Shown piece by piece: positions 4,354 to 40,185 of a DNA stretch of 42,933 bases (positions are counted from its first letter, which is position 1; each line of letters starts with the position of its first letter). A model generated the notes under the pieces. That model saw only the letters and a program-made list of their open reading frames with translations, did not search any database and was not told the DNA's origin. This stretch comes from a virus, in IMG/VR virus record IMGVR_UViG_3300031673_000139, positions 1 through 42,933 of that record. One strand, 5' to 3'. The translations under genes were made by a program, and so were the position numbers.

Positions 4354-4365
4354 GGTGAGGGGAGA

Positions 4366-27398: not shown

Positions 27399-27435
27399 GC
27401 GCGCTGGCCCCCCTCCGGCCGGCGCGCTTATTTTT
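27399..27435 (+). terminator. Strong terminator between the convergent operons
   Basis: An 11-bp stem (27399-27409 with 27417-27427, one T-G pair) with a 7-nt loop is followed by TTATTTTT. It ends the rightward late operon just past the fibre gene. The T-run also contains the stop codon (TAA, read leftward) of the last gene of the leftward operon, so convergent genes end back to back. In the leftward direction no T-run follows, so it should work mainly rightward. Confidence 0.85.
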
Positions 27436-27595
27436 GCAGGGCGGCGATTATGCCCGGCACCTTAAGCGCCGGAATCGGCACAAGCCCGCGCTCCCAACGG
27501 TGGACCTCTTGAGCCGAACAGCCCAACCGCTCCGCCGCCTGCCGCTGCGTCAGCCCGGCCGCCTGCCTGAGCGCCCGGAGTTCCGCGCCGGTCAC
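27428..27595 (-). CDS. Small XRE-family HTH regulator
   Basis: A 55-residue protein made almost entirely of one helix-turn-helix: RALRQAAGLTQRQAAERLG, then SAQEVHRWERGLVPIPA. It is the typical Cro/C1 (XRE) DNA-binding fold. Without a C-terminal domain it is closer to a Cro-type repressor than to a cleavable one. GTG at 27595-27593 (leftward) overlaps the stop of the preceding gene. It is the last of five leftward genes and may regulate the 28662-28995 control region or bind elsewhere. Confidence 0.75.
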   Translation of the reverse strand: MTGAELRALRQAAGLTQRQAAERLGCSAQEVHRWERGLVPIPALKVPGIIAALQK

Positions 27596-27849
27596 GGCCG
27601 CTCCGCCTGCTCGATGGCCGCGCGAGCCTCCCCCACCAAGACGTGTAGCCACTCTGCCGCGCGCTTCTTGCCGATGTATTCCTGGTGACCCGGCCGATTG
27701 CCGGCGGCCAGCTTGCCGGCGCAACACTCTGTCTGTCTCGCGTAGTCCCGGAGCGCCGCCAGCAGCGCCGCCTTGTCGGCGCGGAGACGGGTGATTTCCG
27801 CGGCCATCGCGCCGTGACTCGACTCCACCTGGTACGTTTCGCAAGCCAT
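27592..27849 (-). CDS. Helical hypothetical protein
   Basis: An 85-residue protein of unknown function in the leftward operon. It has a heptad-like helix (AAEITRLRADKAALLAALRD) followed by CCAGKLAAGNRPGHQEYIG and another helix. A GGGAGG ribosome site precedes its ATG (27849-27847), itself preceded by a small GC hairpin with a GCGA loop. Its stop overlaps the start of the XRE gene. Confidence 0.6.
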   Translation of the reverse strand: MACETYQVESSHGAMAAEITRLRADKAALLAALRDYARQTECCAGKLAAGNRPGHQEYIGKKRAAEWLHVLVGEARAAIEQAERP

Positions 27850-28161: not shown

Positions 28162-28425
28162 CTACAAAACACGCCCCCAGGTCGCGCGAGAATTGTGCGA
28201 CCCCATGAGTATGCGCCCGTCACGTGACACGATGGCATCATCTCCATCGTACAGGCTCGCGCGGATCAGTGGATACACCGCCGTTTGGCCGCAGTCCTCC
28301 CAGCTGTCGGCGACCGCCAGTGACCGCGACCCGGCCACGGATAGCTCGCGGCACATCCTCCGCCAAATCGCCCGCAACGTCCGGCCCCGGTACTCCCGCC
28401 CCATCTCGTCACGCAGGATACGCAT
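28162..28425 (-). CDS. Small hypothetical protein
   Basis: An 87-residue protein of unknown function. The N-terminal half is basic (GREYRGRTLRAIWRRMCREL). The C-terminal half (ASLYDGDDAIVSRDGRILMG) looks like a small mixed alpha/beta domain. GGAGGAGG lies before ATG 28425 (leftward), again with the hairpin module (28442-28455). No known family is recognised. Confidence 0.5.
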   Translation of the reverse strand: MRILRDEMGREYRGRTLRAIWRRMCRELSVAGSRSLAVADSWEDCGQTAVYPLIRASLYDGDDAIVSRDGRILMGSHNSRATWGRVL

Positions 28426-28454: not shown

Positions 28455-28661
28455 CTACTTGCGCTCCGCCTTGGCGATGGCCGCGCGGTAAAAGGCTTCG
28501 GCCGTCGCGGCGTCGTAGACCTTCCGGGCTTCGGCCGTCGCGGCGTCGTAGACCTTCCGGGCTTCGGCCGTCGCGGCGCAGTAGACCTTCTGGGCTTCGG
28601 CCGTCGCGGCGCCGTAGACCTTCCGGGCTTCGGCCATCGCGGCGTCGTAGTACATCCCCAT
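28455..28661 (-). CDS. Tandem 11-residue-repeat protein
   Basis: A 68-residue protein made almost wholly of five 11-residue units of the type (A)xAEARKVYxA, each encoded by a 33-bp DNA repeat. The units differ at one or two sites (KVYD, KVYC, KVYG), the last being degenerate (AFYRAAIAKAERK). An 11-residue period fits a hendecad, three helical turns, so the protein probably forms an extended helix with a stripe of Ala and Tyr. It is the first gene of the leftward operon, 60 nt from the predicted start of transcription. Function is unknown. Similar AEAxKVYxAA peptides occur in other phage proteins. Confidence 0.6.
   Translation of the reverse strand: MGMYYDAAMAEARKVYGAATAEAQKVYCAATAEARKVYDAATAEARKVYDAATAEAFYRAAIAKAERK
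28495..28650 (-). repeat. 33-bp tandem repeat inside the repeat-protein gene
   Basis: Units of 33 bp start at 28495, 28528, 28561 and 28594, with a shorter fifth unit from 28627 to about 28650. The first two units are identical; the third and fourth differ at one to four positions around the codon before the conserved Lys-Val-Tyr. The period equals 11 codons, so copy-number change keeps the frame open. This points to slippage or unequal crossover as the way the gene length varies. Confidence 0.85.
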
Positions 28662-28731
28662 CGTCCTCTCCTCCTCCTGCCCGTCTCACCGGCGCCGGGC
28701 GGCCGTGCTCTTGTTCTCTACATATTGTATA

Positions 28732-28747
28732 AGCAAGGGTCATGCCA
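28732..28747 (-). promoter_or_regulatory. Sigma-54-type (-24/-12) promoter of the leftward operon
   Basis: On the minus strand the sequence TGGCATG-ACCC-TTGCT matches the sigma-54 consensus (TGGCACG-N4-TTGCW) at all positions but one (T for C). The invariant GG and GC are exactly 10 nt apart. It predicts a start near 28721, giving a 60-nt leader to ATG 28661 that contains the type-2 hairpin and the ribosome site. A TATACAAT sequence lies just downstream (28719-28733) but has no -35 partner. Confidence 0.7.
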
Positions 28748-28832
28748 CAGATGGCAGACAACCGCTAGTCTCGTAAGCCGCGCGTTTGCGCCACTTGCGC
28801 CACCAACGTAGAGCAACCGTAGCTTTTGGCTA

Positions 28833-28879
28833 TGACAAAAATTATCGCGGTGACAAAAAGTGTTACCCAAAATTGTCAC
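28833..28879. promoter_or_regulatory. Candidate enhancer (activator) sites between the divergent promoters
   Basis: TGACAAAAA occurs at 28833-28841 and again at 28851-28859 (18-bp period). GTGACAA at 28850-28856 is mirrored by TTGTCAC at 28873-28879, a 7-bp inverted repeat with a 16-nt gap. These AT-rich elements lie in an otherwise GC-rich genome, about -99 to -145 from the rightward and -112 to -158 from the leftward predicted start. Sigma-54 activators usually bind at such distances. They could instead be repressor operators. Confidence 0.55.
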
Positions 28880-28951
28880 TCGGTGGGCAAGTCCTGTATC
28901 CGTTTGCGCCCTAAGCCTTGCAATACCGGGGGGTTGCGAATAAAAAGCCTT

Positions 28952-28967
28952 TGGCACGGTGTTTGCT
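28952..28967 (+). promoter_or_regulatory. Sigma-54-type (-24/-12) promoter of the rightward early operon
   Basis: TGGCACG-GTGT-TTGCT is a perfect match to the sigma-54 (RpoN) consensus TGGCACG-N4-TTGCW, with the GG and GC dinucleotides 10 nt apart. The start is predicted near 28978, only 18 nt before ATG 28996, and the short leader is essentially the GGGAGGA ribosome site. The match is at the base of a long operon of replication and methyltransferase genes. No good -35/-10 pair is seen here. Confidence 0.75.
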
Positions 28968-28995
28968 ATATCCCTGTTGACTTGGGAGGATTAAG

Positions 28996-29328
28996 ATGTC
29001 AAGGCCACCAGCAAAAGACCACAGACCCGGACAGTTATATCTACCCGAAAAGATGCGTGATGCCCTGCGCATTCGCCTTTTATCTATTCAGAAAAACCGG
29101 TGTGCGATATGCGGCAAGGACTTTACCGGAGAGACCGGAAAGCTGCATATAGACCATGACCACACGACACGGCAAATTCGGGGACTTTTGTGCCGCTTCT
29201 GCAATCACGCCGTGGGGTGTCTCCGGGACTCGGTTGCAAGTGCACAAGCCCTGATAGCCTATCTTCGCTGTCCCCCGCTTGACCCCCCCGGTTGTCATCC
29301 GGTTCCGCCTTGGGAAAAAAGCAAGTGA
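28996..29328 (+). CDS. Recombination endonuclease VII-like HNH nuclease
   Basis: A 110-residue protein with the endonuclease VII pattern: CAICGKDF (C36/C39), then the HNH-like core LHIDHDHTTRQIRGLLCRFCN (H51-H56, C66/C69), and a helix ALIAYL. Endonuclease VII resolves branched DNA before packaging and debranches replication intermediates. It is the first gene after the rightward sigma-54-type promoter, with a strong GGGAGGA site. It overlaps the next GTG by 4 nt. Confidence 0.85.
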   Translation: MSRPPAKDHRPGQLYLPEKMRDALRIRLLSIQKNRCAICGKDFTGETGKLHIDHDHTTRQIRGLLCRFCNHAVGCLRDSVASAQALIAYLRCPPLDPPGCHPVPPWEKSK

Positions 29329-29777
29329 ACGGTGATACGATAACACGGCCCGCCAGTGACGCCCAGCCGGCGCCTCAGCCTCCCAAGTCTGAGCCGGCCA
29401 ATCCTGGCGGGCCACTTTCTGTTGGTCAACGGCTTGCGGCTGGCCGGGTTGCCGCCAGGGCGGCCCGCAAGGTTGCAAAAACGCAATGTAATCCGCCGCA
29501 GGACGCGACTTCTGGCCTCCACCCTAGCGCGATAGCCGTTCTTGCCGATTGCCCGTCCAGGTCACAGAAACGTTACCTTTTGGCCTTGTCGGGCCGTGGC
29601 GGGCTCAAGAACGCGGTCAAGGTCATGTGCCTGCATTGCTGCGGCTGGCAACTGCTGGAATCGGCGAAATGCACAGCCGCCGGTTGCCCGTTGACAGCTT
29701 TCAATCCCTACAAGGCGAAGGCAGAGCGGCGGCTTTCGGGCCGGGCGCTAGGAGAAAGCGGAGGGCACGGGGTATGA
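29325..29777 (+). CDS. Hypothetical protein with cysteine motif
   Basis: A 150-residue protein of unknown function starting at GTG 29325 (GTGA overlap). The first 50 residues are low complexity and Pro/Ala-rich (QPAPQPPKSEPANPGG). A C-terminal region has VMCLHCCGWQ, then SAKCTAAGCPL, giving a cluster of about five Cys that may bind metal. It ends with ERRLSGRALGESGGHGV, encoded by the first of three copies of a 15-bp element. Confidence 0.6.
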   Translation: MNGDTITRPASDAQPAPQPPKSEPANPGGPLSVGQRLAAGRVAARAARKVAKTQCNPPQDATSGLHPSAIAVLADCPSRSQKRYLLALSGRGGLKNAVKVMCLHCCGWQLLESAKCTAAGCPLTAFNPYKAKAERRLSGRALGESGGHGV

Positions 29778-30025
29778 GGGCAACCATCGAACCGACCACG
29801 GGCGATGGTGGTTTGGTGCCGGCCATCTCCGGCGGAACCGGCTGCGGAGCCGGGGACGTAAGAAGCCCTCGGAAGCGGGGATATCTAGAGCGTGGGCGAG
29901 ATGCTGATTACCGCCGGACGCGGCGGTGGCATCGAGACACCGCCTCGGACCACGCCGCAGGAAACGACCCCCTCTACCCTCCGCCCCAATTTGAGCGGCT
30001 TTCGGGCCGCGAAAGGGAGGCGTAA
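29774..30025 (+). CDS. Short hypothetical protein, uncertain
   Basis: An 83-residue frame from ATG 29774 (ATGA overlap with the upstream stop) to TAA 30023-30025, one nucleotide before the next GTG. No motif is recognised; the middle is arginine-rich and polar (RKRGYLERGRDADYRRTRRW). It ends ERLSGREREA, read in the same frame as the related repeats in its neighbours, which supports the frame. A second long frame starting near 29892 in another phase is the alternative for the downstream gene. Confidence 0.4.
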   Translation: MRATIEPTTGDGGLVPAISGGTGCGAGDVRSPRKRGYLERGRDADYRRTRRWHRDTASDHAAGNDPLYPPPQFERLSGREREA

Positions 30026-30026
30026 C

Positions 30027-30401
30027 GTGGCTTACACTGGTGCGATTCTCGATAAGCACATCGGGGTTCTGCGCAAGTTACCTGCCGGCACGTTCTTCGA
30101 CACAACGAAAACGGGGTTTGAGTTTCAGGCGCACACGCAGGCTCAGGCGAAGGAGCTGCGAAAGCACCTGCCGCACTGTATCTGGCACAAACACTATGAA
30201 GATGGCTGTAAGTGGTGGGAGTACACAGCCAACGCGAAGGGGCTAACCATGAGGATTTACGCAATTGATGAGGCCCCGGCAACCTGCAAGGCCATTTACA
30301 AGGAGCAGACGGTTCAGGAGCAGGTTCCGGTGGCCTTCGAGACCCGCACGGTTCGCAAGCAGGTTCTGGTGGGTTGGGATTGCGGCAAGGGCAAGAAATG
30401 A
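30027..30401 (+). CDS. Hypothetical protein
   Basis: A 124-residue protein of unknown function. GTG 30027 is chosen because GGGAGGCG lies immediately upstream, although an in-frame GTG at 29892 would add 45 residues of low-complexity sequence. The protein looks like a small alpha/beta domain (GAILDKHIGVLRKLPAGTFF, AQAKELRKHLPHCIWHKHYE, then KWWEYTANAKGL). The C-terminal segment (KEQTVQEQVPVAFETRTVRK) is repetitive in Gln and Val. The stop overlaps ATG 30398. Confidence 0.6.
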   Translation: MAYTGAILDKHIGVLRKLPAGTFFDTTKTGFEFQAHTQAQAKELRKHLPHCIWHKHYEDGCKWWEYTANAKGLTMRIYAIDEAPATCKAIYKEQTVQEQVPVAFETRTVRKQVLVGWDCGKGKK

Positions 30402-30448
30402 CTGCGGAGAGAGCGCGGCGGCTTTCGGGCCGGGGAGGCGGAACGTGA
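30398..30448 (+). CDS. 16-codon mini-frame
   Basis: ATG 30398 overlaps the preceding TGA, and TGA 30446-30448 overlaps the GTG start of the next gene. The peptide (MTAERARRLSGRGGGT) carries the same ERxRLSGR peptide as the ends of the two upstream frames, and its coding DNA includes the GGGGAGGCGG ribosome site of the next gene. It may exist only to couple translation, or be the remnant of a duplicated gene end. Confidence 0.3.
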   Translation: MTAERARRLSGRGGGT

Positions 30449-30570
30449 CCGCGACACAGCGCGAAATCTGGCGGTCTACGCTGGTAATCGGCGCCGGGAT
30501 ACTGTTGCTGATCATGGCCTATTTCGGCGCGGACTGGATTGCGGACAAGCTGCAAGGGGGCGGGCGATGA
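30445..30570 (+). CDS. Small single-span membrane protein
   Basis: A 41-residue protein with one membrane segment (STLVIGAGILLLIMAYFGA) and short polar ends. GTG 30445 follows GGGAGGCGGAAC, a good ribosome site. Its function is unknown. Tiny one-span proteins in early operons often act as membrane effectors or superinfection factors; nothing here points to one role. The stop overlaps the next ATG. Confidence 0.55.
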   Translation: MTATQREIWRSTLVIGAGILLLIMAYFGADWIADKLQGGGR

Positions 30571-31127
30571 GCAAGATGCTGGATTTCTGCAAGGCGCACG
30601 GCGCTTGCAAGGACGCGGTTGATTGGCTAACCGCGGGGGGCATTGAGACGATGGCCGACGCCTGGGCAAAATGCCCCCGGGCAGACTGGATGCTGTGGGG
30701 GTTGCGCAAGCTGGGCAAGCTGACGAAGCGCCAAAGCGTGAAAATCGCCATCACGTTCGCCGTTCGCGCGTTGCCGCTTTTCGAGAAGCGCTACCCCGGA
30801 GACGAGAGGCCACGCAAGGCCATCGCGGCGGCGCGTAAGTGGCTGGCAAATCCGTCCGCCAAGAACGCCGCCGCCGCCTACGCCGCCGCCTACGCCGCCG
30901 ACGCCGCCGCCGCCTACGCCGGCGCCGCCGCCTACGCCGCCTACGCCGCCGCCGCCGCCGCCGACGCCGACGCCGCCGCCGCCTACGCCGACGCCGCCGC
31001 CGCCTACGCCGGCGCCGCCGCCTACGCCGCCGCCTACGCCGCCGCGCGGTGTGCCGAGTGGCTCTGGCAGGCGAATTATTTGCGCAAGGCATTCCCCAAG
31101 ATGTTTGCGAAAGGGGGCGGGCGATGA
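30567..31127 (+). CDS. Ala/Tyr-rich repeat protein
   Basis: A 186-residue protein in three parts. The N-terminal 95 residues are a helical domain (MLDFCKAHGACKDAVDWL, TMADAWAKCPRADWMLWGLR, ARKWLANPSAK). They resemble the N-terminus of putative immunity (Imm5-like) proteins found in phages. The central 60 residues are Ala-Tyr-Asp-Gly repeats (AAYAAAYAADAAAAYAGAAAY type). A final domain (CAEWLWQANYLRKAFPKMFA) ends it. The repeat is likely a long helix. ATG 30567 overlaps the upstream stop. Confidence 0.55.
   Translation: MSKMLDFCKAHGACKDAVDWLTAGGIETMADAWAKCPRADWMLWGLRKLGKLTKRQSVKIAITFAVRALPLFEKRYPGDERPRKAIAAARKWLANPSAKNAAAAYAAAYAADAAAAYAGAAAYAAYAAAAAADADAAAAYADAAAAYAGAAAYAAAYAAARCAEWLWQANYLRKAFPKMFAKGGGR
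30868..31047 (+). repeat. GCC-rich tandem repeat encoding Ala/Tyr blocks
   Basis: About 180 bp of GCC, TAC, GAC and GGC codons in imperfect repeats. The most regular unit is 12-15 bp (GCCGCCGCCTAC type), often with GACGCC. Its minus strand reads as long Arg-rich frames, which are artefacts of the composition. Such GC triplet runs are prone to slippage, so the length could vary between isolates. Confidence 0.75.
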
Positions 31128-31327
31128 GGGTTGATATTGTGTGTCCCAAATGTGGCGGGGGCGGGGTCCGCGCGGGTAGCATAAATCGCTGTGAGCCCGG
31201 GAATTGCGATGATTGCGGTTGGAGTCTCGGGTCGCCGACGAACCCCATACATACGCATGTTTGCCCCGCGTGCTGCTGTTTCACCCCAAGCGAGGATGCG
31301 GGCGATGACGTTGCAACAGGCGATTAA
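31124..31327 (+). CDS. Small cysteine-rich (zinc-ribbon) protein
   Basis: A 67-residue protein. It opens with VDIVCPKCGGGGVRAG (Cys-x2-Cys) and has CDDCGWSLG (Cys-x2-Cys), then CPACCCF near the end, so at least one zinc ribbon is likely. ATG 31124 overlaps the previous stop. Function is unknown; phage proteins of this type are usually small nucleic-acid- or protein-binding factors. Confidence 0.6.
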   Translation: MRVDIVCPKCGGGGVRAGSINRCEPGNCDDCGWSLGSPTNPIHTHVCPACCCFTPSEDAGDDVATGD

Positions 31328-31502
31328 GCGGCTGGCGCTGATGCTGGCGCTCCTGCCGACCGTGGCGCCGAACCAGTCCATAGACGAAACGGCGGCAGAC
31401 CTTGAAAACGCGCTTTGCAACCTTTTCGACGCCGCGGCGCGCGAAAACCGCCCGCCCGTTGACGCGATTGCGCAGCCGCGGGAAATAGGAGGCAAGCAAT
31501 GA
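31305..31502 (+). CDS. Small helical hypothetical protein
   Basis: A 65-residue protein of unknown function. ATG 31305 is preferred because GAGG lies 9 nt upstream; ATG 31296 is an alternative. It is helical (TLQQAIKRLALMLALLP, then DETAADLENALCNLFDAAAR) and ends in a Pro-rich tail. The stop overlaps ATG 31499. Confidence 0.5.
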   Translation: MTLQQAIKRLALMLALLPTVAPNQSIDETAADLENALCNLFDAAARENRPPVDAIAQPREIGGKQ

Positions 31503-32032
31503 GCGGGCAAATCTGCGGCATGTGCGGCCGGCTGATTGCGCCGGATACCAAGGCGGGCTGGACAAGCATCGCCGGATTCGCGGCGCTCTACTGCGAATCA
31601 TGCTTGCGGGCTCACGCGCAAGAGTTCCCGAGCGCGCGGATTGTCGGCAAATCGGCAAGGCAAGAGATTGGGGCGGCGCGGCGTGGTCTGGACACGCGAC
31701 GGGGTACGCCGAGGCCGGAAGTGAGCCCGACGGGCCAAGCGACCCAACGGGAGGCGATGACAGCCCCGTACGGCATAGCCGGTGAAAATCCGGCCGCCGC
31801 CCCAACGCCCGAAATGCCAAAGTGCCCAAAGTGCGGAAGGACGGCTCGCCGTTCGGATGGTACTATTCCGCAGGCGTATTTCTGCGACCCTTGCGGCTAC
31901 CCCATCGACGCCCGGACGAAAACGGCGGAGGCGACGTGTCACGGTTGCGGGATTTTGCCGGCATCCAACTCCGCCGGGTTGTGCCAGGGCTGCCTGCAAA
32001 AGTATTGGGACTTGAAAGCGCGTGAAAAATGA
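31499..32032 (+). CDS. Triple zinc-ribbon protein
   Basis: A 177-residue protein carrying three Cys-x2-Cys pairs or ribbons. The N-terminal one is CGMCGRLI, then YCESCLRA. The central one is CPKCGRTARRS, then CDPCGYP. The C-terminal one is CHGCGILPAS, then CQGCLQK. This is the most elaborate of the cysteine-rich proteins of the early operon and may bridge nucleic acids or proteins. The linker between first and second ribbon is long and basic. Stop and start are coupled with both neighbours. Confidence 0.6.
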   Translation: MSGQICGMCGRLIAPDTKAGWTSIAGFAALYCESCLRAHAQEFPSARIVGKSARQEIGAARRGLDTRRGTPRPEVSPTGQATQREAMTAPYGIAGENPAAAPTPEMPKCPKCGRTARRSDGTIPQAYFCDPCGYPIDARTKTAEATCHGCGILPASNSAGLCQGCLQKYWDLKAREK

Positions 32033-32193
32033 CCCGCAAGCGTAAGATTCTCCGGCTGCAAGGACGCCGCGGCCCGCTGACTGAGCGGCAGCGGTTCATC
32101 CTGGCCTTGGAGCGCGCGGCGATAGAACTCTACGATGACATGGTTAGGCAGGATGAATCGCGGCGCGCATTCCGGCGGGAGGCCGACGAATGA
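32029..32193 (+). CDS. Small basic hypothetical protein
   Basis: A 54-residue, arginine-rich frame from ATG 32029 (ATGA overlap with the previous stop) to TGA 32191-32193. It starts MTRKRKILRLQGRRGPLTER and continues as a helix with many charged residues (RFILALERAAIELYDDMVR). Such small basic proteins in early operons often bind DNA or RNA, but no family can be named. Confidence 0.5.
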   Translation: MTRKRKILRLQGRRGPLTERQRFILALERAAIELYDDMVRQDESRRAFRREADE

Positions 32194-32231
32194 CCCGCGC
32201 AACCTGCCCGATCTGTGGCGAAAGGAGTTGA
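32190..32231 (+). CDS. 13-codon mini-frame with a zinc-knuckle motif
   Basis: ATG 32190 overlaps the upstream TGA; the frame ends at TGA 32229-32231, 2 nt before the ATPase ATG. The peptide is MTRATCPICGERS, including a CPICG knuckle. The AAGGAG within it is the ribosome site of the next gene. It is probably a translational-coupling frame or a relic of a longer gene. Confidence 0.25.
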   Translation: MTRATCPICGERS

Positions 32232-32233
32232 CG

Positions 32234-33310
32234 ATGTTTCTCAAGGCCGGATTCCTGGGCTTTGCCGGAAGCGGGAAGACGCACACGGTTGGGCTCCTGG
32301 CCGCCGAACTTTGCCGTCACTACAAGTATACCGGCAAGGTGGCGCTGTTTGACACAGAGAATACCGCTTTTCAGGTCCGGCGCGTGCTGTCTAACGTGGG
32401 CGGGCCGGCGGTCCACGCCGCGAACGCCCGGAGCTTCGGCCAGATGTGCGCCTTCGCGCGCGCGGTCGAGGCCGGGAAAAACGAATGCGCCCCGGTGCTG
32501 ATTGTGGACAGCATTACGCATGTTTGGCGCGAACTCTGCGATTCCTACATGCGCCAGTTGAACCAGGCGCGGGAGGCACAGGGACAGCCGCCGCGCCGCC
32601 GGATGACGCTCCAAGACATCTGCCGAATCAAAGAAATCTGGTATCCCTGGCCGACCTATTTCCTCAACAGCCGGCTCCATATCCTGATTTGCGGGCGCGC
32701 CGGCTACGAGTGGGGGCAGGAGGAGGACGATTCTGGCAACAAGGAATTAGTCAAGACCGGAATCAAAATGAAGGTGGAGGGGGAGTTCGGTTTTGAGCCC
32801 TCACTCGTTGTCCAGATGGTCCTTAATCAGCGTGAGCAGGCCGGGCGGTTTGTGCTTGAACACACAGCATACATCCTCAAGGACCGGCTCGGCCTGCTCA
32901 CTGGAAAGGAAATCAAGGAACCCGCCGGCAACGCCTGGACGGAATACCTGTCCGAACTTGACGCCATCGAGGCCGGCACCGTTGACGCGCAAACCGAAAC
33001 GGCAACCGGCGCAGACGTTGACGGCAATACCGCGTGGAGCCGCGAGAAACGCCAGCGCCAGATTAACGCCGAGGAAATCAAGGCGGAGTTCGAGAAGCGG
33101 GCCGGCGGGCAAACGGCAGACGCCAAGGCCCGCCGAATCGGCCTCATGGAGTCGGCCTTCGGGACGCCCTCTTGGACCGCGATTGAAAACATGCACAGCG
33201 ACAAACAGCGCGCCGGGCTTGTGGCCTTGCGTGCGGCGCTGGACGCGGAAGCCCCGGCGGCAGAGCCGCCGCCGGCCGAACCGAAGCCCAAGACGCGAAG
33301 GGAGAAATAG
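32234..33310 (+). CDS. RecA-like ATPase (AAA_24/Sak4-type) recombination protein
   Basis: A 358-residue protein with Walker A GFAGSGKT (9-16) near its start and a Walker B-type VLIVDSITHVW (D92). This matches the phage nucleotide-binding family that includes Sak4-type single-strand annealing partners and RecA-like core proteins. The C-terminal half (about 250-358) is charged and low complexity, with a Pro/Ala-rich end. It directly precedes an SSB-like gene, the usual partner of such ATPases. It should act in phage recombination or replication. ATG 32234 has AAGGAG 7 nt upstream. Confidence 0.75.
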   Translation: MFLKAGFLGFAGSGKTHTVGLLAAELCRHYKYTGKVALFDTENTAFQVRRVLSNVGGPAVHAANARSFGQMCAFARAVEAGKNECAPVLIVDSITHVWRELCDSYMRQLNQAREAQGQPPRRRMTLQDICRIKEIWYPWPTYFLNSRLHILICGRAGYEWGQEEDDSGNKELVKTGIKMKVEGEFGFEPSLVVQMVLNQREQAGRFVLEHTAYILKDRLGLLTGKEIKEPAGNAWTEYLSELDAIEAGTVDAQTETATGADVDGNTAWSREKRQRQINAEEIKAEFEKRAGGQTADAKARRIGLMESAFGTPSWTAIENMHSDKQRAGLVALRAALDAEAPAAEPPPAEPKPKTRREK

Positions 33311-33312
33311 CC

Positions 33313-33816
33313 ATGCCTCTATTCCCTGGTGGCACTTACCCGGCAACCGTGACCAAGACCTCTTGGGTGCAAAGTCAAACCGGCTTGCCCGGTTTGCGCG
33401 TGACCGTCGCAGTCTCCGACCCGGAGGGCGGCGACACGGTGCTTGTCGGCACAATCTACTTTTCGGAGCGCAACGCTGGAATGGGCCGCCGGCAACTCAA
33501 GAACTTGGGCTTTGACCCTGACACCCAGAGCGCGCCCGAAATCGGCAAGACCGTCTCCCTCGACGGTAACGAGGTCCGCGAGGGCGTGACCCTAGAGGAA
33601 TACAAGGGCGAACTCAAGGTCGGCTTCTTCGGCCGCAAGGGTGGCTGCGATGCGGCCACGCTCAAGGGACTTGATGCGATGCTTCGGGCCGCCAAAAAGG
33701 GCAATGAGCCCAAGGCGGCGCACGAGAACTTTTCGGCCCCCGGCGTAGACCTCCCGGCCCCAAAGGAAGACGCGAGTTCCCAGCCGGCGGGCGGCGATGA
33801 TGACATTCCGTTCTAG
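33313..33816 (+). CDS. SSB-like single-strand DNA-binding protein
   Basis: A 167-residue protein. The first 110 residues are a beta-barrel-like domain (YPATVTKTSWVQSQTGLPG, DTVLVGTIYFSER, EYKGELKVGFFGRKGG), resembling DUF669-type and SSB-like phage proteins. The rest is a flexible acidic linker with AHENFSAPGVD and ends DDDIPF. That is the terminal tip of bacterial SSB proteins, which recruits partner enzymes. It should protect single strands and bring host or phage replication proteins, consistent with the adjacent ATPase. Confidence 0.75.
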   Translation: MPLFPGGTYPATVTKTSWVQSQTGLPGLRVTVAVSDPEGGDTVLVGTIYFSERNAGMGRRQLKNLGFDPDTQSAPEIGKTVSLDGNEVREGVTLEEYKGELKVGFFGRKGGCDAATLKGLDAMLRAAKKGNEPKAAHENFSAPGVDLPAPKEDASSQPAGGDDDIPF

Positions 33817-33857
33817 CGCAGCGATGGTTTGGCTCACGCGGCAGAAGGCGCCGGAAA

Positions 33858-34016
33858 ATGCCTGACGCCGGCAAGGGCAGCCGATACCGGCCGGTCAATC
33901 GGGCGGCATGGGAAAAGGGCTACGCGCGGGCTTTTGGCAAGCGCAAAAAGGTCAAGCGTTTCTGGGCCGCGCCGGGGCAACTGATTCGAGCGGTGGTCAA
34001 GAGGAGGGGCGACTAA
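33858..34016 (+). CDS. Small basic phage protein of a recurrent type
   Basis: A 52-residue, strongly basic protein. It has the motif GSRYRPVNRAAWEKGYARAFG, in which the RPVN, an aromatic residue and a final FG recur in many short phage proteins of unknown function that I recall. The rest is a basic patch (KRKKVKRFW) and a hydrophobic stretch. ATG 33858 lies 41 nt after the SSB stop. The TAA overlaps the next ATG (TAATG). Confidence 0.55.
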   Translation: MPDAGKGSRYRPVNRAAWEKGYARAFGKRKKVKRFWAAPGQLIRAVVKRRGD

Positions 34017-34342
34017 TGCCCGTCGAGGTCCGCCTGTACGGCTTGCCGCTTTGCGGCGCGTGTCAAAGCTGGAAGCGCTTTCTGGAGGCGGAGGAAATCG
34101 AATACACCTTCAAGCCGCTCAGTGCCCTAGCCGGCGACATTCTGGCGGCAGAAGCCCTCAGAATTGGACTGGTTGTCTCCCTGGCCGAGCGAAACGGGGC
34201 AGATGGCGCCTTGCACATTGCCCCGGTGGTTTGCGTGGTTCACCCGGAGATTCCGGGCAAGCGCGCCGAACGCTGGAACCTGCTGGCCGAAGGCACTCCG
34301 CCGCCCTTGCAGGTCAAGGACGGCGAATTGATGGCGGGATAG
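34016..34342 (+). CDS. Glutaredoxin/thioredoxin-like protein
   Basis: A 108-residue protein. It starts VRLYGLPLCGACQSWKRFL, with a Cys-x2-Cys active site (C13/C16) following a beta strand as in glutaredoxins. The following segments (FLEAEEIEYTFKPLSA) also fit the fold. Phage glutaredoxins usually supply electrons to ribonucleotide reductase or maintain thiols; no reductase is present here, so it may serve a host enzyme or another phage protein. ATG 34016 overlaps the preceding stop. Confidence 0.65.
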   Translation: MPVEVRLYGLPLCGACQSWKRFLEAEEIEYTFKPLSALAGDILAAEALRIGLVVSLAERNGADGALHIAPVVCVVHPEIPGKRAERWNLLAEGTPPPLQVKDGELMAG

Positions 34343-34345
34343 GCG

Positions 34346-34702
34346 ATGCCTGTACAAGCGAAAGCCGAGCCGCGGATTCGCCTGAAGAGCGGCGCGTCGC
34401 GTAGCGACCCGACCGGCAAGGGCCGCTTTGACCTGATTTCGCCTTACGCCCTAGAGCGCCTAGCCTTGCACTATGAGGCCGGCGCGAAGCTCCACGGCGA
34501 CCGGAACTGGGAAAAGGGCATACCGTTTAGCCGCCTGATTGATAGCGCCGAGCGTCACCTGAACAAGTTTAAGCAGCGCAAGGCCGACGAAGACAACCTG
34601 GCCGCCGCCATGTGGCAACTGTGCGGCCTCATGCACTTTCAGGCCGTCGGCCCCCGGAGCCTGGATGATCGGCCGCGATACCGCAAGGAGGGCGCGAAAT
34701 GA
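34346..34702 (+). CDS. dATP/dGTP diphosphohydrolase-like protein (DUF5664 type)
   Basis: A 118-residue protein with the pattern SGASRSDPTGKGRFDLISPY, then HYEAGAKLHGDRNWEKGIP, then AERHLNKFKQRKADEDNLAA. This matches the domain annotated as dATP/dGTP diphosphohydrolase, N-terminal, in phages. It would remove purine dNTPs, shaping the nucleotide pool. Its place next to a deoxyribosyltransferase-like protein suggests a small nucleotide-handling unit. ATG 34346 lies 3 nt past the glutaredoxin stop. Confidence 0.7.
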   Translation: MPVQAKAEPRIRLKSGASRSDPTGKGRFDLISPYALERLALHYEAGAKLHGDRNWEKGIPFSRLIDSAERHLNKFKQRKADEDNLAAAMWQLCGLMHFQAVGPRSLDDRPRYRKEGAK

Positions 34703-35139
34703 TTGACCCGACTGTTTATCTGGCCGGATACATCGCTGGTGAGGTGCTGGACAAATGCCGCGAGTGGCGCGAATTTTGCAAGCAGGAGGAACCCACGTGG
34801 AACTGGATAGACCCCCTTACCGGCAAAGACTTGTCTAGCATTACGCCGGACGGCTGCGGAAGCTCCATCCCCCATTCCGTGATTTTTGCCCGCGATTTTC
34901 AATCGGTATCTCGCGCGCACATGCTTCTCGGCAATATTGACACCTTTGGCTGTGTCCGCCCCCCCTTGGGGACATACTCCGAAATCGCGTGGAGTTACGT
35001 TCAACGCAAACCCGTCCTGTTGCTCTCTACGGACCAGCGAATTCGGCAACACCCATTCATCACTGGTCAGGCGGCCTTTGTGGGGTCAACCGTACCCGAA
35101 ATAATGGCGATGGCCCGATACATCGCGTTGGGGTTGTAG
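34699..35139 (+). CDS. Nucleoside 2-deoxyribosyltransferase-like protein
   Basis: A 146-residue protein with the layout of the family. It opens VYLAGYIAGEVLDKCREWRE (strand and glycine turn) and has NWIDPLTG and an NID-type aspartate. GTYSEIAWSYVQRKPVLLL carries the expected catalytic-type Glu (E95). Family members cleave or exchange the base-deoxyribose bond. It could salvage nucleotides or take part in base modification. ATG 34699 overlaps the upstream stop. Confidence 0.7.
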   Translation: MIDPTVYLAGYIAGEVLDKCREWREFCKQEEPTWNWIDPLTGKDLSSITPDGCGSSIPHSVIFARDFQSVSRAHMLLGNIDTFGCVRPPLGTYSEIAWSYVQRKPVLLLSTDQRIRQHPFITGQAAFVGSTVPEIMAMARYIALGL

Positions 35140-35146
35140 GGGAAAC

Positions 35147-35293
35147 GTGGCTACGAAAGACGGAAGATTTCGCGCCCGTTGTCCGCGGCGCCGGCCGTGT
35201 CCCAAAGTTGAATCATGTTCAAGGTGGCGGTGTCCCGAGAAGGCGGCGTCTGTGATCGCAGCCGCAAAAGGGGCCGGGGACGGGAGGGCCTAA
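35147..35293 (+). CDS. Small Cys/Arg-rich protein
   Basis: A 48-residue frame from GTG 35147 (8 nt after the previous stop, with GGGGAAA upstream) to TAA 35291-35293. It has four Cys in an Arg-rich setting (RARCPRRRPCPKVESCSRWR, with a fourth Cys just after), spacing 5-5-4, perhaps a small zinc module. The TAA overlaps the next ATG. Function is unknown. Confidence 0.4.
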   Translation: MATKDGRFRARCPRRRPCPKVESCSRWRCPEKAASVIAAAKGAGDGRA

Positions 35294-35400
35294 TGCTCGC
35301 TGAATTTCTGGCCGTCTTCCTGGGCGTGCTGCTTGGCGAAATCGGCGGGGAGGTTGCGCAGGCTTTCATACGGCGGTGGTTTAGGCGGAGGGGATGGTAA
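35293..35400 (+). CDS. 35-residue membrane peptide
   Basis: A short frame from ATG 35293 (TAATG overlap). It encodes a hydrophobic helix (LAEFLAVFLGVLLGEIGGEV) followed by a basic amphipathic tail (FIRRWFRRRGW). The composition fits a membrane-inserted microprotein. GGGAGGG upstream is a good ribosome site. Function is unknown. Confidence 0.45.
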   Translation: MLAEFLAVFLGVLLGEIGGEVAQAFIRRWFRRRGW

Positions 35401-35765
35401 TGCCATACATTGACCAAGCGGGCCGCGAACGGCTTAACCCGGCGCTGCAAAAGCTGCGCATAGCGCTTCATCTGCGCCACCGCATACCCGGCGATCTGAC
35501 CTACTGCATTTTTTACCTGCTTTTGGACCGCGCCCTCGCGGAAAACAGCTACGCGCAGATATCCGCCACGCGCGCTTGCGCCCAAGACGCGGCCGACGAA
35601 TACAAGCGCCGAGTAATGGACCCCCACGAAAACAAGGCCATTGAGCGCAACGGCGACATCCCCCTCCTGCCGCCGCTCGGCGAAGTCCTGACCGTCACGA
35701 CGGCGGATGGCAAGGAACTCCGCTACTTTGCTACCCCCCTGCCGCCGCTGGAGGGCAAGCCATGA
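35400..35765 (+). CDS. DUF6899-like phage protein
   Basis: A 121-residue protein (ATG 35400, TAATG overlap; an in-frame ATG at 35394 would add two residues). It has the pattern MPYIDQAGRERLNPALQKL, GDLTYCIFYLLLDRALAENSY, and DEYKRRVMDPHENKAIERNGD. I recognise this as a widespread small phage protein family (DUF6899). Its function is not established. Confidence 0.65.
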   Translation: MPYIDQAGRERLNPALQKLRIALHLRHRIPGDLTYCIFYLLLDRALAENSYAQISATRACAQDAADEYKRRVMDPHENKAIERNGDIPLLPPLGEVLTVTTADGKELRYFATPLPPLEGKP

Positions 35766-36010
35766 CCGTGCAAATCCTGGTTCGGCCCTGGGCGGGGTTC
35801 AAGGACAGATGGTGGGCGACGGTAATCCCCTTCCGCCCGCGCGATTTGGACCGCCAGCCCGACGGTTCCATTCGCCCGCCGGACTGGCGGGACATCTGCT
35901 TTGATTGCGGGGCGTATGCCTCTGCGGCACACGCACTGCTGGTTGCCCGCGACTACTGCCGCAAGCTCGGTTGGCGCGTCCGCAAGATTACGAGGGAGGG
36001 CAAGGCATGA
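35762..36010 (+). CDS. Hypothetical protein
   Basis: An 82-residue protein of unknown function. It begins with beta strands (VQILVRPWAGFKDRWWATVI) and then has an acidic/aromatic middle (DWRDICFDCGAYASAAHALL), with Cys-x2-Cys and a helix ending RDYCRKLGWRVRKI. It is coupled to both neighbours. It may be a small double-stranded beta-helix or mixed fold protein. Confidence 0.5.
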   Translation: MTVQILVRPWAGFKDRWWATVIPFRPRDLDRQPDGSIRPPDWRDICFDCGAYASAAHALLVARDYCRKLGWRVRKITREGKA

Positions 36011-36798
36011 AAGCGAAGCGCTTGGTAGTCATTTCGGACCTGCATTGCGGGTCCAACGTCGGGTTGACGCCGCCTAGCTGGCATGATTCGCCGCCGGCAG
36101 ACGCGCCGCGCGGCGTCCAGAAGCGGGCGGAGTTCCGGCGCAAGCAGTGGCGGTTTTTCGCCGATACCGTCAAGGCGTTGCAGCCGGTTGACCGACTGAT
36201 TGTGCTGGGCGATTGCATAGACGGCGCGCAGCCGAAGGCCGGCGGGGTGGAACTGATTGCGCGTGACCGCAACGAACAGGTACGCATGGCCGTTGACTGC
36301 ATACAGGAGGTCAAGGCCAAGCGGGTAGCCTTTGTCTACGGGACCGGCTACCACGTCGGGGCCGAGGAGGATTTTGAAGACCAGGTTGCCGAACCGTTCG
36401 GCGGCGAGATTGCAGCCCAACAGGACATAGACATTAACGGCGTGATTTTCAACGCCAAGCACTACGCGGGGAATACCGCCAGCCCGCCGAGCCGATTCAC
36501 GTTCCTTTCGGCCGAACAGGTGCGGCAGTTGCTTTGGGCATCGCACGAACAGCAGCCCAAGGCCGACGTGATACTCCGGGGCCACGCGCATCGGTACGCG
36601 GTATGCGGCGAAGAGGGCTGGATGGCCTTCCTCTGCCCGCCGCTGCAAGGGCTGGGCGGCAAAATCGCCCGAATGCGGTCAAGTCTGCCGCTGGCCTACG
36701 GGCTCCTGAGCTTTGACGTTCTGCGCAAGGGGGGTTACGCCTGGAACGCGCACGTGCAGCCGCTTTCAGCCCAAGCCGCGCGGGTGCTTTTGTGGTAG
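36007..36798 (+). CDS. Calcineurin-like metallophosphoesterase
   Basis: A 263-residue protein with the metallophosphoesterase motif series: VVISDLHCGS (D11/H13), LIVLGDCID (D69), YGTGYHVG in place of the usual GNHD/GNH motif, and RGHAHRY (H193/H195). The GDxxD and GHxH sites support a two-metal centre, although the missing GNHD asparagine may change activity. Phage members are common and their substrates are mostly unknown; it may act on nucleic acids or nucleotides. ATG 36007 overlaps the upstream stop. Confidence 0.75.
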   Translation: MKAKRLVVISDLHCGSNVGLTPPSWHDSPPADAPRGVQKRAEFRRKQWRFFADTVKALQPVDRLIVLGDCIDGAQPKAGGVELIARDRNEQVRMAVDCIQEVKAKRVAFVYGTGYHVGAEEDFEDQVAEPFGGEIAAQQDIDINGVIFNAKHYAGNTASPPSRFTFLSAEQVRQLLWASHEQQPKADVILRGHAHRYAVCGEEGWMAFLCPPLQGLGGKIARMRSSLPLAYGLLSFDVLRKGGYAWNAHVQPLSAQAARVLLW

Positions 36799-37112
36799 GG
36801 CGCGTCGGGGGCGGCGTCCGAATCCGCCCGGCGATAGACCTGCCGCCAGACTTTGCCGCCGAAATGGAGCGGCAGGGGTTGACGGTCAAGGCCCTGCCGG
36901 CTACCGAGCGCGTGCTTGCGGCCATGATTGCCGTATGCCGCCGGGAGGGCCGTCCGGCAAGCCGCAAGGAACTCGTAACCGCGACGGGCATACCCTTTAG
37001 GACGGTTGCCGACGCGCTTGTACGGCTGGTTGCCGAAGGCCGCGCCTTGACGGCTACCGACCCCCGCAACCCGACGTGGCAACTGTACATCCCGAAAGGC
37101 GCCGGCAAGTGA
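36792..37112 (+). CDS. Winged-helix-like small DNA-binding protein
   Basis: A 106-residue protein. Its second half fits a winged helix: VLAAMIAVCRREGRPASRKE, LVTATGIPFRTVADALVRLV, AEGRALTATDPR as wing. Its first part is basic and Pro-rich. GTG 36792 overlaps the previous gene by 7 nt and is the only reasonable start. It may regulate early genes or act in replication. The end overlaps the next GTG. Confidence 0.55.
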   Translation: MVGRVGGGVRIRPAIDLPPDFAAEMERQGLTVKALPATERVLAAMIAVCRREGRPASRKELVTATGIPFRTVADALVRLVAEGRALTATDPRNPTWQLYIPKGAGK

Positions 37113-37411
37113 ATCATTGCGGCACTTGCGGACTTGAACTGCCCGACGCGGAATTCGACGCCGATACGCGCCGGGTTAATGGCCTGTCAAGCCGCTGCAA
37201 GGAATGTCGCCGGGCCTGCGGACGCGCATACACGAGGCGCAAGCGGGAGGGGCTGGTGATCGTCGGCCGCCGCTATCGCGCGTCTGCCGGGGCCGCCTTC
37301 GTCCACTGGTTGCTTTCAGAAGACTGCGGGCGCTGGATAGGTTTCCACACCGCCCCATTCCGCGCCAACTTGTCAACAAGTACCGACATTTTTGCACAGG
37401 AGGCTAGCTAA
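37109..37411 (+). CDS. Zinc-finger protein (HNH-associated type)
   Basis: A 100-residue protein starting at GTG 37109 (GTGA overlap). Its N-terminus HCGTCGLELPDAEFDADTRR, then GLSSRCKECRRA, is the four-Cys zinc finger often found at the start of HNH endonucleases or in small stand-alone phage proteins. No HNH motif follows; the rest is a basic, aromatic region (AFVHWLLSEDCGRWIGFHT). It is therefore a stand-alone zinc finger or a truncated nuclease. GGAGGC at its end serves the next gene. Confidence 0.6.
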   Translation: MNHCGTCGLELPDAEFDADTRRVNGLSSRCKECRRACGRAYTRRKREGLVIVGRRYRASAGAAFVHWLLSEDCGRWIGFHTAPFRANLSTSTDIFAQEAS

Positions 37412-37743
37412 TGGGCAAGCCCGAAAATGCCGTACAGCGCCAATGCCTGCAACTGCTACGCCTCTCGCACATACCGGCGTGGCGGTCCAACAATGCCGGC
37501 GTCTACAATCGCAAGGCCGGTTGCTACACCTTCCACGGTACGCCCGGAGTTGCCGATATCCTGGCGATCCTGCCGCCCGACGGCCGGTTGCTCGCCATCG
37601 AGTGCAAATCGGCGACCGGCAAGCAGACGGACGCCCAGCGCAATTGGGCGGCGGAAATCTCCGCGGCCGGCGCAACCTACGTTGTCATCCGCGACATTGC
37701 CGAACTGCAAGCGGCACTAAGACAGGCGGCCGGCAATGCGTAG
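37411..37743 (+). CDS. VRR-NUC domain nuclease
   Basis: A 110-residue protein matching VRR-NUC (Holliday-junction-resolvase-like) nucleases. The PD-(D/E)xK core is GTPGVADILAIL (D49) followed by LLAIECKSATGKQTDAQ (E64-x-K66). Such stand-alone phage VRR-NUC domains process branched DNA. ATG 37411 overlaps the previous TAA. The end overlaps the next gene by 8 nt. Confidence 0.85.
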   Translation: MGKPENAVQRQCLQLLRLSHIPAWRSNNAGVYNRKAGCYTFHGTPGVADILAILPPDGRLLAIECKSATGKQTDAQRNWAAEISAAGATYVVIRDIAELQAALRQAAGNA

Positions 37744-37978
37744 CCTCAGCACGCCCTTTTGCATCGAGCGCGCGGGCGCGGAGATTGAAGGCGTCCTGTT
37801 CTTCAACGTCTACAAAGGCGAACCGCGCGGCCCGCACTACCCCGGCTGCCCGCCATACCTGGGCGAAATGCGATTCGTGGACCCCGACGGCTACGAGCGA
37901 TTCCTTACCCCAAGCGAATTCAAGGCCGCAGAAGCCGCCGCCTGGCAAGAGGTCAAGAAGGAGGCCGCCCATGTTTGA
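37736..37978 (+). CDS. Hypothetical protein
   Basis: An 80-residue protein of unknown function. It has strands CIERAGAEIEGVLFFNVYKG, then an HYPGCPPYLGEMRFVDPDG loop and a helical acidic end (KAAEAAAWQEVKKEAAHV). Its end is encoded by GGAGGCCGCCCATG, the same junction sequence that ends the following DUF5131 gene. It is coupled to both neighbours. Confidence 0.5.
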   Translation: MRSLSTPFCIERAGAEIEGVLFFNVYKGEPRGPHYPGCPPYLGEMRFVDPDGYERFLTPSEFKAAEAAAWQEVKKEAAHV

Positions 37979-38726
37979 CCGCATCGCCGAGGGCCGCTGG
38001 TGGGACCGCCCGCTCGGGCTGGTCCGGGGCTGTACGCCGTGCTCTCCGGGCTGTGACCACTGCTGGCTACGGAGCACCTATCGGCGCTTCCGCGGCGGCG
38101 CGGACATCTCCGCCAAGTTCTGTGACTGGCCTCTTGAGAAGCTGCGCCGTGCCCGGAAGCCCGCGGCCTGGGCGGTGTGGAGCGACCTGTTCCACGAAAA
38201 CGTCAAGGACATGGAAATCTCGGCCGCCTTGCACGTCGCCGGCCACGCCTCGAAGCACGTGGTCATGATGCTGACCAAGCGCGCCGCGCGCATGGAAAAG
38301 TGGTCGCGGTGGTTCGGCGAGTGGCCGCCGACCGCCTGGGCCGGCGTCACCGTCTGCAACCAGGCCGAAGCCGACGAGAAAATCCCGCTGCTGCTACAAG
38401 TCCCGGCGGCGGTGCGGTTTCTGTCCCTGGAGCCCATGCTCGGGCCGGTGGACCTCGGCCCCTGGTTGGGCACGGTCCACACCGACCAGTTCGGCGGGCA
38501 CTGGGGGAAAGACGGCCCCTGGGTGGATGGCCTCGCGTGGGTCATCCTCGGCGGCGAGACCGGTCCCGGCGCGCGGCCGATGGACCTGACGTGGGCACGG
38601 AGCGTCCGCGACCAATGCGTCGCGGCCAGCGTCCCATTCTTCTTCAAGTCTCATGGCGGCCGGACCAAGAACCGGCTGCTCGACGGCCGCACTTGGAACG
38701 AATTGCCGGAGGCCGCCCATGCCTGA
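37971..38726 (+). CDS. DUF5131 / phage Gp37-Gp68-like radical-SAM-type protein
   Basis: A 251-residue protein with the signature of the family. RGCTPCSPGCDHCW contains C24-x3-C28-x2-C31, the spacing of a radical-SAM iron-sulphur motif, after an extra Cys at 21. Later it has VVMMLTKRAARM, TAWAGVTVCNQAEAD, VRFLSLEPMLGPVDL and LAWVILGGETGPGAR, all family motifs. The reaction of the family is not established; radical-SAM chemistry on DNA, RNA or nucleotides is plausible. It is followed directly by two DNA methyltransferases, which suggests a role in DNA modification (inference). ATG 37971 overlaps the upstream stop. Confidence 0.8.
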   Translation: MFDRIAEGRWWDRPLGLVRGCTPCSPGCDHCWLRSTYRRFRGGADISAKFCDWPLEKLRRARKPAAWAVWSDLFHENVKDMEISAALHVAGHASKHVVMMLTKRAARMEKWSRWFGEWPPTAWAGVTVCNQAEADEKIPLLLQVPAAVRFLSLEPMLGPVDLGPWLGTVHTDQFGGHWGKDGPWVDGLAWVILGGETGPGARPMDLTWARSVRDQCVAASVPFFFKSHGGRTKNRLLDGRTWNELPEAAHA

Positions 38727-40185
38727 GCGCCTCGGCCCCTACGAGTTGGGCCGCGTCCATTGCGGAGACTGCCTCGACGGCATGGCGGCGCTGCCGGCCG
38801 ATTCCGTTGACAGCATCGTTACCGACCCGCCCTATGGCCTGACAGACTGCCATGTGGGCGGTGATGCTATTCCCGGCAAGTTCGGCGAGCGCACAGAAGA
38901 AGAAAAACTTGCCAGAAAAGCCACCAGGGAGCGCGGCGGATTTATGGGGATGAAATGGGACCGCGGTGTGCCCGGAGTCGCGTTCTGGCAGGCCGCGCTC
39001 CGGGTCTCCAAGCCCGGTGCTCACCTGCTGGCCTTCGGAGGGACGCGCACTTTTCACCGGCTGGCTTGCGCCATCGAGGACGCCGGCTGGGAGATACGCG
39101 ACTGCATCATGTGGGTGTATGGTTCCGGCTTCCCCAAGTCGCTTGACGTTAGCAAGGCGATTGACAAAGCGGCGGGGGCGGCGTTTGAGTCGCGCCCGGC
39201 TTCGGGTGTAGGCTTTATGAATGCCGAGGGCGCGGGCGGCTACAACGTCACAAAGAACCAGCTTCGGCTCAAGGGAGAAAGCACGCCCGCCGCGAAGCTC
39301 TGGGCCGGCTGGGGCACGGCGCTCAAGCCGGCCTGGGAGCCCATCATCGTCGCCCGCAAGCCTTTAATCGGCACCGTTGCCGAAAACGTATTGAAGCACG
39401 GCACCGGGGCGATGAATATTGACGGGTGTAGGATAGAAACGCAAGACAATCTAAATGGTGGAGCTTATAGTGGTGGTGCGAAGGACTTGGACAGTGCTAC
39501 AAGTTATGCAACTGGTGTTAATGCTGGAACATTCAAGCAACCTGCCGGCCGCTGGCCCGCCAACCTTGTCCACGACGGCAGCCCGGAGGTGCTGGCGGGG
39601 TTCCCGGAAAGTCAAGACGGGGTGGCCGTGCGCCACCGCGGAGTAAGCGGCGGACGCATTATGTGCCGGCCAAAACCGCCCGGAACGCCGGACGCAGGTT
39701 ATGGGGGTTCCGGTTCCGCCGCCCGCTTCTTCTACTGCGCCAAGGCCAGCCGGAGCGAAAGAGAGGCGGGGATGGAAGGGTATCGCGTTGTCCCCGCCGG
39801 AGAGAGGGCGGGGGGGCGCGCGGAAGGTTCGGCCGGACTCGTCATGGCCGATGGCAAGGCCAACCCCTATGCCGGAACCAACACTCCGAATCGCAACCCC
39901 CACCCCACCGTCAAGCCCATCAGCCTCATGCGCTGGCTGGTCAGGCTGGTTACCCCGCCGGGTGGGCTTGTCCTTGACCCCTTCGCCGGCTCGGGCTCCA
40001 CGCTCTGCGCCGCGGTGTTAGAGGGCTTCAACCCGCTCGGCTTCGACATGGAGGCCGAATACGTAGCCATCGCCAACGCCCGGATTGACTACTGGCGCAA
40101 GCACCCCGAAGGCCCGGCATACGAGCCGGACGCTCCCGAGGTCTGCGCCGGCCAGGGGCAGCTTTTCGGAGACGAACATGCCTGA
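38719..40185 (+). CDS. Beta-class DNA methyltransferase (N6-adenine or N4-cytosine)
   Basis: A 488-residue protein. The catalytic motif DPPYG (36-40) is near the N-terminus and the SAM-binding DPFAGSGST (420-428) near the C-terminus, the order of beta-class amino-methyltransferases. LLAFGGTRTFHRL and the HPTVKPISLMRWL segment are also typical. The long middle part holds the target-recognition region. It includes a patch (39420-39545) that is clearly AT-richer than the rest. The first 14 and last few residues match the next methyltransferase. It would modify phage DNA, perhaps against restriction. ATG 38719 is coupled to the preceding gene. Confidence 0.85.
   Translation: MPERLGPYELGRVHCGDCLDGMAALPADSVDSIVTDPPYGLTDCHVGGDAIPGKFGERTEEEKLARKATRERGGFMGMKWDRGVPGVAFWQAALRVSKPGAHLLAFGGTRTFHRLACAIEDAGWEIRDCIMWVYGSGFPKSLDVSKAIDKAAGAAFESRPASGVGFMNAEGAGGYNVTKNQLRLKGESTPAAKLWAGWGTALKPAWEPIIVARKPLIGTVAENVLKHGTGAMNIDGCRIETQDNLNGGAYSGGAKDLDSATSYATGVNAGTFKQPAGRWPANLVHDGSPEVLAGFPESQDGVAVRHRGVSGGRIMCRPKPPGTPDAGYGGSGSAARFFYCAKASRSEREAGMEGYRVVPAGERAGGRAEGSAGLVMADGKANPYAGTNTPNRNPHPTVKPISLMRWLVRLVTPPGGLVLDPFAGSGSTLCAAVLEGFNPLGFDMEAEYVAIANARIDYWRKHPEGPAYEPDAPEVCAGQGQLFGDEHA

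Follow-up and report, generated by a model that had tools for sequence, protein, structure and literature searches.

Divergent candidate sigma-54 promoters with a putative pilin-type activator site between them at the head of a phage replication operon

Phages are usually described as opening transcription with sigma-70 promoters, which fire at once. Polymerase carrying sigma-54 is unable to open DNA unaided. The use of sigma-54 by phages is rare but has a precedent in Pseudomonas phage YuA (PMC5053324), whose record annotates three -24/-12 consensus promoters in the structural region gp54-gp68. Our Salmonella-derived matrix gave no score as high as 14 bits anywhere in the first 50 kb of YuA or of M6. 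The same 50 kb contained no palindrome of the pilA type discussed below with at most one mismatch, and we dropped both phages as carriers of the activator site described here. Among bacterial systems, pilA of Geobacter sulfurreducens has an RpoN-dependent, PilR-regulated promoter and adjoins pilR (PMC2725144), and the NtrC-like regulator NmpR is associated with the inverted repeat GCGCA-N5-TGCGC, with five spacer bases (PMC11841059).

The DNA considered here (the window, meaning the whole stretch analysed) is an entire virus record of 42,933 bp, and its 136-bp terminal repeat (99% identity) suggests, from the sequence, a complete genome. All genes except those in about 1.3 kb are transcribed rightward, and the intergenic control region occupies 28662-28995 (334 bp). 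The rightward run crosses the record ends, where it continues with a primosomal protein and then the small terminase, large terminase, portal and major head protein; it stops near 27351, ahead of a strong hairpin. The leftward operon consists of four genes, from 28661 to 27428, with a Cro/XRE-type regulator last. The genes and the hairpin are as follows:

27399-27427, plus strand: terminator-like hairpin after the last rightward gene, an 11-pair stem followed by TTATTTTT
27428-27595, minus strand: 55-aa Cro/XRE-type regulator of the leftward operon (transcription-regulator PHROGs, best E 3.6e-8)
27592-27849, minus strand: 85-aa protein of the leftward operon, no assigned function
28162-28425, minus strand: 87-aa protein of the leftward operon, no assigned function
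28455-28661, minus strand: first leftward gene, a 68-aa protein of 11-aa repeats
28996-29328, plus strand: first rightward gene, endonuclease VII-like (HNH), 110 aa (several endonuclease VII PHROGs, best E 1.4e-21)
29292-42278, plus strand: remainder of the rightward replication/nucleotide operon (Sak4-like, dATP/dGTP diphosphohydrolase, VRR-NUC, DUF5131, methyltransferases, DnaB-like helicase)

We infer that the rightward operon is early because its genes are replication genes. The repeat unit of the 68-aa leftward protein is ATAEARKVYDA, and an Imm5-like domain (PF21805, above cut-off) lies at 30567-31127 on the plus strand, inside the replication operon. Neither a sigma-54 DNA-binding domain (PF04552) nor the AAA+ domain of bacterial enhancer-binding proteins (PF00158) was detected in the 31 viral records searched for each, the window included; both sigma-54 and its activator would thus have to be those of the host.

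The elements of the control region are the following:

28732-28747, minus strand: leftward candidate sigma-54 promoter TGGCATG-ACCC-TTGCT, second-best matrix score of the genome
28833-28841, plus strand: extra half-site TGACAAAAA, read directly, with a presumed role
28850-28866, no strand assigned: candidate activator site (upstream activating sequence, UAS, of PilR type) GTGACA-AAAAG-TGTTAC, 11 of the 12 bases of GTGACA-N5-TGTCAC
28873-28879, plus strand: extra half-site TTGTCAC, forming an inverted repeat with 28850, with a presumed role
28952-28967, plus strand: rightward candidate sigma-54 promoter TGGCACG-GTGT-TTGCT, exact consensus, top matrix score of the genome
28985-28989, plus strand: Shine-Dalgarno sequence GGAGG of the first rightward gene, read directly

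A sequence-only reading of this DNA had proposed that a perfect sigma-54 promoter drives the rightward operon. Its bases and position proved exact on direct reading, with TGGCACG at 28952-28958, a four-base spacer, TTGCT at 28963-28967, GGAGG at 28985-28989 and the ATG at 28996; with a predicted transcription start near 28978, the leader is 18 nt. The exact string TGGCACG-N4-TTGC occurs once in the window, both strands searched. Both strands of the 42,933 bp were scored against a matrix derived from 29 Salmonella promoters, intergenic and supported by ChIP (PMC3844500; training scores 16.6-26.1 bits). On this Salmonella matrix, the rightward element ranked first with 21.5 bits. That score was reached in 1 of 300 simulated first-order Markov genomes, in which dinucleotide content alone is preserved. 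Many equally good matches inside genes, which had been named as an observation against the site, were not seen: all matches beyond the best three scored 13.3 bits or less, and only one of the three is intragenic. This third match, TGGCGCGAATTTTGCAAG at 34765 on the plus strand (18.2 bits), lies within the gene 34699-35139 and is probably due to chance. A looser scan, allowing up to three mismatches, gave 417 matches in the window, which is not above chance, so that only the near-perfect class is informative.

The claim that this element drives the rightward operon holds in part. In silico, an element of the sigma-54 type does head the rightward replication operon, but the description was incomplete, as the element belongs to a divergent pair. 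The second member, absent from the earlier reading, scores 20.2 bits, shares the 334-bp intergenic region with the first and is directed at the leftward genes; its score was equalled by the second-best match in none of the 300 simulations. Both elements fall inside the range of the training promoters, both contain the GG and GC elements with their invariant spacing (TGGCACG-N4-TTGCT and TGGCATG-N4-TTGCT), and both are intergenic, each facing a gene with a leader and a ribosome site. Sigma-70-type matches did not exceed chance in the intergenic region or in either of the two scanned stretches of 20 kb. The two -24/-12 elements lie in the sole divergent region, one directed at each operon. The resemblance could nevertheless be accidental, with the real promoters being sigma-70-like but so diverged that the scan misses them, and with idle -24/-12 matches. 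Such promoter scans are weak, and part of the pattern matches in viral contigs must be chance, given the 16 control matches reported below. However, the two top matches of the genome face outward from one intergenic region, at scores that 1/300 and 0/300 simulations attained, and this region holds no sigma-70 match, which makes an accident very improbable. The two elements are, on their sequence, very likely to be functional sigma-54 promoters.

To place these elements among other viruses, we searched a set of 2.9 million viral contigs; the pattern was a -24/-12 element without mismatch, 12-40 nt before GGAGG-N4-10-ATG. The survey yielded 117 stretches versus 16 with the core reversed as a control; both counts include near-identical contigs and give a ratio rather than independent numbers. 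Within the 117 loci, 241 core sites were found versus 2 controls. When the sites used for selection were excluded, 106 of 118 were intergenic, compared with about 34% of random positions, and the next gene was on the same strand for 87 of 99, with genes called by a simple purpose-written script. The first downstream genes are mostly short and diverse, 104 of them forming 87 groups. No close relative of the window was found by endonuclease VII, terminase, DnaB or DNA identity, and Sak4-like relatives (L002-L005, 37-44% identity) have almost no further genes in common with it and were unusable for site conservation. One of these Sak4-like relatives has a -24/-12 match at its edge (G003:47), which was set aside, not being directed at an operon. 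Between other phages with such sites, conservation of the fixed bases mostly held. In one pair with 64% identity (L035/L127), 9 of 9 fixed bases were kept, with 0 of 4 in the spacer and 57% in the flanks; in another with about 80% identity (L052/L070), 9/9, 9/9, 9/9 and 8/9 were kept. In one group of related phages (L085/L128/L129), the site was not kept in a diverged, probably paralogous, alignment.

Some viral contigs carry these elements in unusual numbers or layouts. The phage-like contig L081 (IMGVR_UViG_3300022654_000841; 80.7 kb, GC 35%) contains 38 -24/-12 elements versus 0 controls, and in a 24-kb block at 48,000-72,000 an element stands about 37 nt ahead of almost every gene start; no pilA-type palindrome was seen there. 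In L022, sixteen elements lie within 3 kb (1421-4436), six of them on one strand every 49-60 bp with differing spacers. In L086 (record G012, 17517-18155), inward-facing pairs 34 bp apart, TGGCAC-N5-TTGCA...TGCAA-N5-GTGCCA, occur in three to four repeats, a layout unlike that of a simple promoter. Dense arrays or facing pairs such as those of L022 and L086 would suit sites that act as decoys or roadblocks for sigma-54 polymerase rather than as promoters. For the window we regard this as extremely improbable, since it has one site per operon, each directed at a gene with a leader and a ribosome site, and a candidate UAS between them.

Upstream of the phage sigma-54 sites, the enriched k-mers GTAACAC, TGACAAA and GTGACAA led to the palindrome GTRACA-N5-TGTYAC, a motif derived post hoc from the data and afterwards confirmed in two collections not used for its discovery. 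Allowing at most one mismatch to GTGACA-N5-TGTCAC, 6 of 170 phage sites have the palindrome 40-130 bp upstream, compared with 0 downstream and 0.1 at random; with at most two mismatches, the corresponding numbers are 11, 0 and 0.4. The window has a single copy of a palindrome of the GTGACA-N5-TGTCAC type. It is situated 85 bp upstream of the rightward -24 element, its sole mismatch being TGTTAC for TGTCAC, and 13 of 20,000 local shuffles of the inter-promoter DNA produced an equally good palindrome. The five spacer bases of the NmpR repeat indicate that this geometry is typical of NtrC-like regulators. Our first guess at the activator, PspF and phage-shock control, was dropped once the palindrome pointed to pilin genes. 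Neither the motifs of NtrC, NifA, NorR, FleQ/FlrA, GlrR, TyrR and NmpR nor IHF sites gave a convincing match in the region.

The palindrome accompanies a sigma-54 element in 11 other viral contigs, often as two or three palindromes in tandem, whereas an everted-repeat control was found in 2 contigs, apparently of one phage. No pilin was present among the genes called downstream in the 11 contigs. IMG/VR contigs may carry non-viral ends; genes for terminase, portal and head proteins are present in the palindrome-bearing viral stretches. In the 19 records with pilA-type sites, 48 core sites were counted versus 0 controls. Where phage sigma-54 sites diverge, other palindromes were observed between or close to them, namely GGACATCCCATGTCC, present twice in L034 (7698-7790), and ACCCCAACCGGTTGGGGT in L077 (2033-2050), and these are perhaps enhancers of different host activators.

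The TGACA/TGTCA repeats of the window could also be operators of the phage Cro/XRE-type regulator (27428-27595), the sigma-54 elements being secondary or under repression. A small regulator in a divergent operon recalls classical phage switches, and three half-sites plus the palindrome are indeed placed between the promoters. The palindrome, however, stands 85 and 102 bp from the promoters and overlaps neither, and this type of palindrome, with the same spacing, precedes bacterial pilins. We therefore judge this explanation improbable.

When about 85,000 genomes of bacteria and archaea were searched for the palindrome followed at 60-90 bp by a -24/-12 element, 55 stretches were returned, where simple arithmetic would lead one to expect about 2 by chance. 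Among the 33 downstream proteins scanned, 20 have the pilin N-methylation motif and 10 a Pilin match, pilin being the most frequent gene family behind the palindrome, in several phyla. Massilia, Deltaproteobacteria, Acidobacteria, Aminicenantes and Gammaproteobacteria are among the source taxa, one example being a pilin that resembles PilA from an uncultured Geobacter. Of the 10 neighbouring genes tested, 5 are NtrC-family response regulators and 2 are PilB. An alignment of the window with three bacterial pilA regions and four phages makes the common elements visible. The 85-bp spacing of the window lies within 60-90 bp and falls in the commonest host class (83-85). Distances are in helical phase at 10.5 bp, both in bacteria (R = 0.62, p ~4e-10, a value inflated by near-identical Variovorax and Massilia copies) and in phages plus the window (R = 0.72, p ~0.002). 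At 102 bp from the palindrome, the leftward promoter is off helical phase, which makes it less certain that both promoters share the enhancer.

Since the palindrome and a sigma-54 element precede pilins, since NtrC-family regulators and PilB adjoin them, and since pilA of G. sulfurreducens is regulated by PilR, the palindrome is best read as a putative PilR-type enhancer. On balance, the sequence comparisons lean slightly towards PilR-type activation of the promoters. The promoters could instead be real sigma-54 promoters served by another NtrC-family host protein, for instance one responding to nitrogen, membrane stress or flagella, with the resemblance to pilA arising through half-sites common to related activators. 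Inverted repeats with a spacer of five are common to NtrC-family regulators, as in NmpR; other phages with sigma-54 sites have different palindromes; and genes other than pilins, such as those for alginate-lyase-like proteins of Variovorax, can also follow the pilA-type combination. Against this, the region is a poorer fit to the motifs of NtrC, FleQ/FlrA, NorR, GlrR, TyrR and NmpR, and pilins are the commonest family behind the palindrome across several phyla. Another activator is thus possible, although rather unlikely. In the Variovorax loci L198, L201, L207, L211 and L236, the enhancer and sigma-54 promoter stand before proteins of about 740 aa with alginate-lyase/laminin-G similarity, and the palindrome core is nearly constant.

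Returning to PilR-type control, we moderately favour an arrangement in which divergent host-sigma-54 promoters, with a PilR-type enhancer between them, head the replication operon. Host sigma-54 polymerase would wait on both promoters as closed complexes. A host activator would be needed because this polymerase cannot open DNA by itself; it would presumably be PilR or a close paralogue, in a host that makes type IV pili. When PilS is active, PilR or its paralogue would be phosphorylated, and this NtrC-family, PilR-type protein could bind GTGACAAAAAGTGTTAC (28850-28866) between the promoters. The bound activator would then loop to the polymerase, remodel it and open the promoter, as at pilA promoters. 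The rightward transcript would provide replication functions, beginning with the endonuclease VII-like gene, and the leftward transcript would cover the four-gene operon ending in the Cro/XRE-type regulator. The replication programme of the phage would in this way be tied to a host state with active PilS/PilR, that is, to pilus production.

Such an arrangement would have consequences for infection. A sigma-54 start stays locked until the host activator is active, and the physiological state of the host would thereby gate infection. With PilR as the activator, the phage would sense the state of an organelle that serves many phages as receptor, and entry would be linked to gene expression. The search pattern already yields comparable sites in dozens of viral contigs. 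It is quite possible, at slightly less than even odds, that phages of several unrelated groups took over, or evolved, copies of the host pilin control region (PilR enhancer plus sigma-54 promoter) for early or replication genes, so that expression tracks the pilus or surface-sensing state of the host, and that transcription by host sigma-54 is common but overlooked among uncultivated phages. An open-access search, with most subscription journals outside it, returned no literature linking PilR to phage promoters, and the divergent, pilin-like form of phage sigma-54 use at a replication operon appears to be new.

The control region thus resembles three known systems. With bacterial pilA promoters (PilS/PilR, sigma-54) it shares a palindrome close to GTGACA-N5-TGTCAC (with one mismatch in the window), the distance of 60-90 bp, TGGCAYR-N4-TTGC and the same helical spacing classes; it differs in driving a phage endonuclease, in having two divergent promoters and in that pilR is not nearby. 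As the downstream gene is endonuclease VII-like and not a pilin, we do not class the window as a pilA promoter, only as one that would work like it. Like the Pseudomonas aeruginosa phage YuA (Yuavirus), it has candidate -24/-12 phage promoters, whose dependence on host sigma-54 is described for YuA (PMC5053324) and is likely here. The YuA sites, in contrast, lie in the late/structural region and are weak by the Salmonella matrix, whereas the window site heads a replication operon. Finally, as in lambda-like Cro/CI switches, one of two divergent operons carries a Cro/XRE-type regulator and the other the replication genes. The promoters of the window are nevertheless of the -24/-12 rather than the -35/-10 type, and control would therefore be by activation, not by repression alone.
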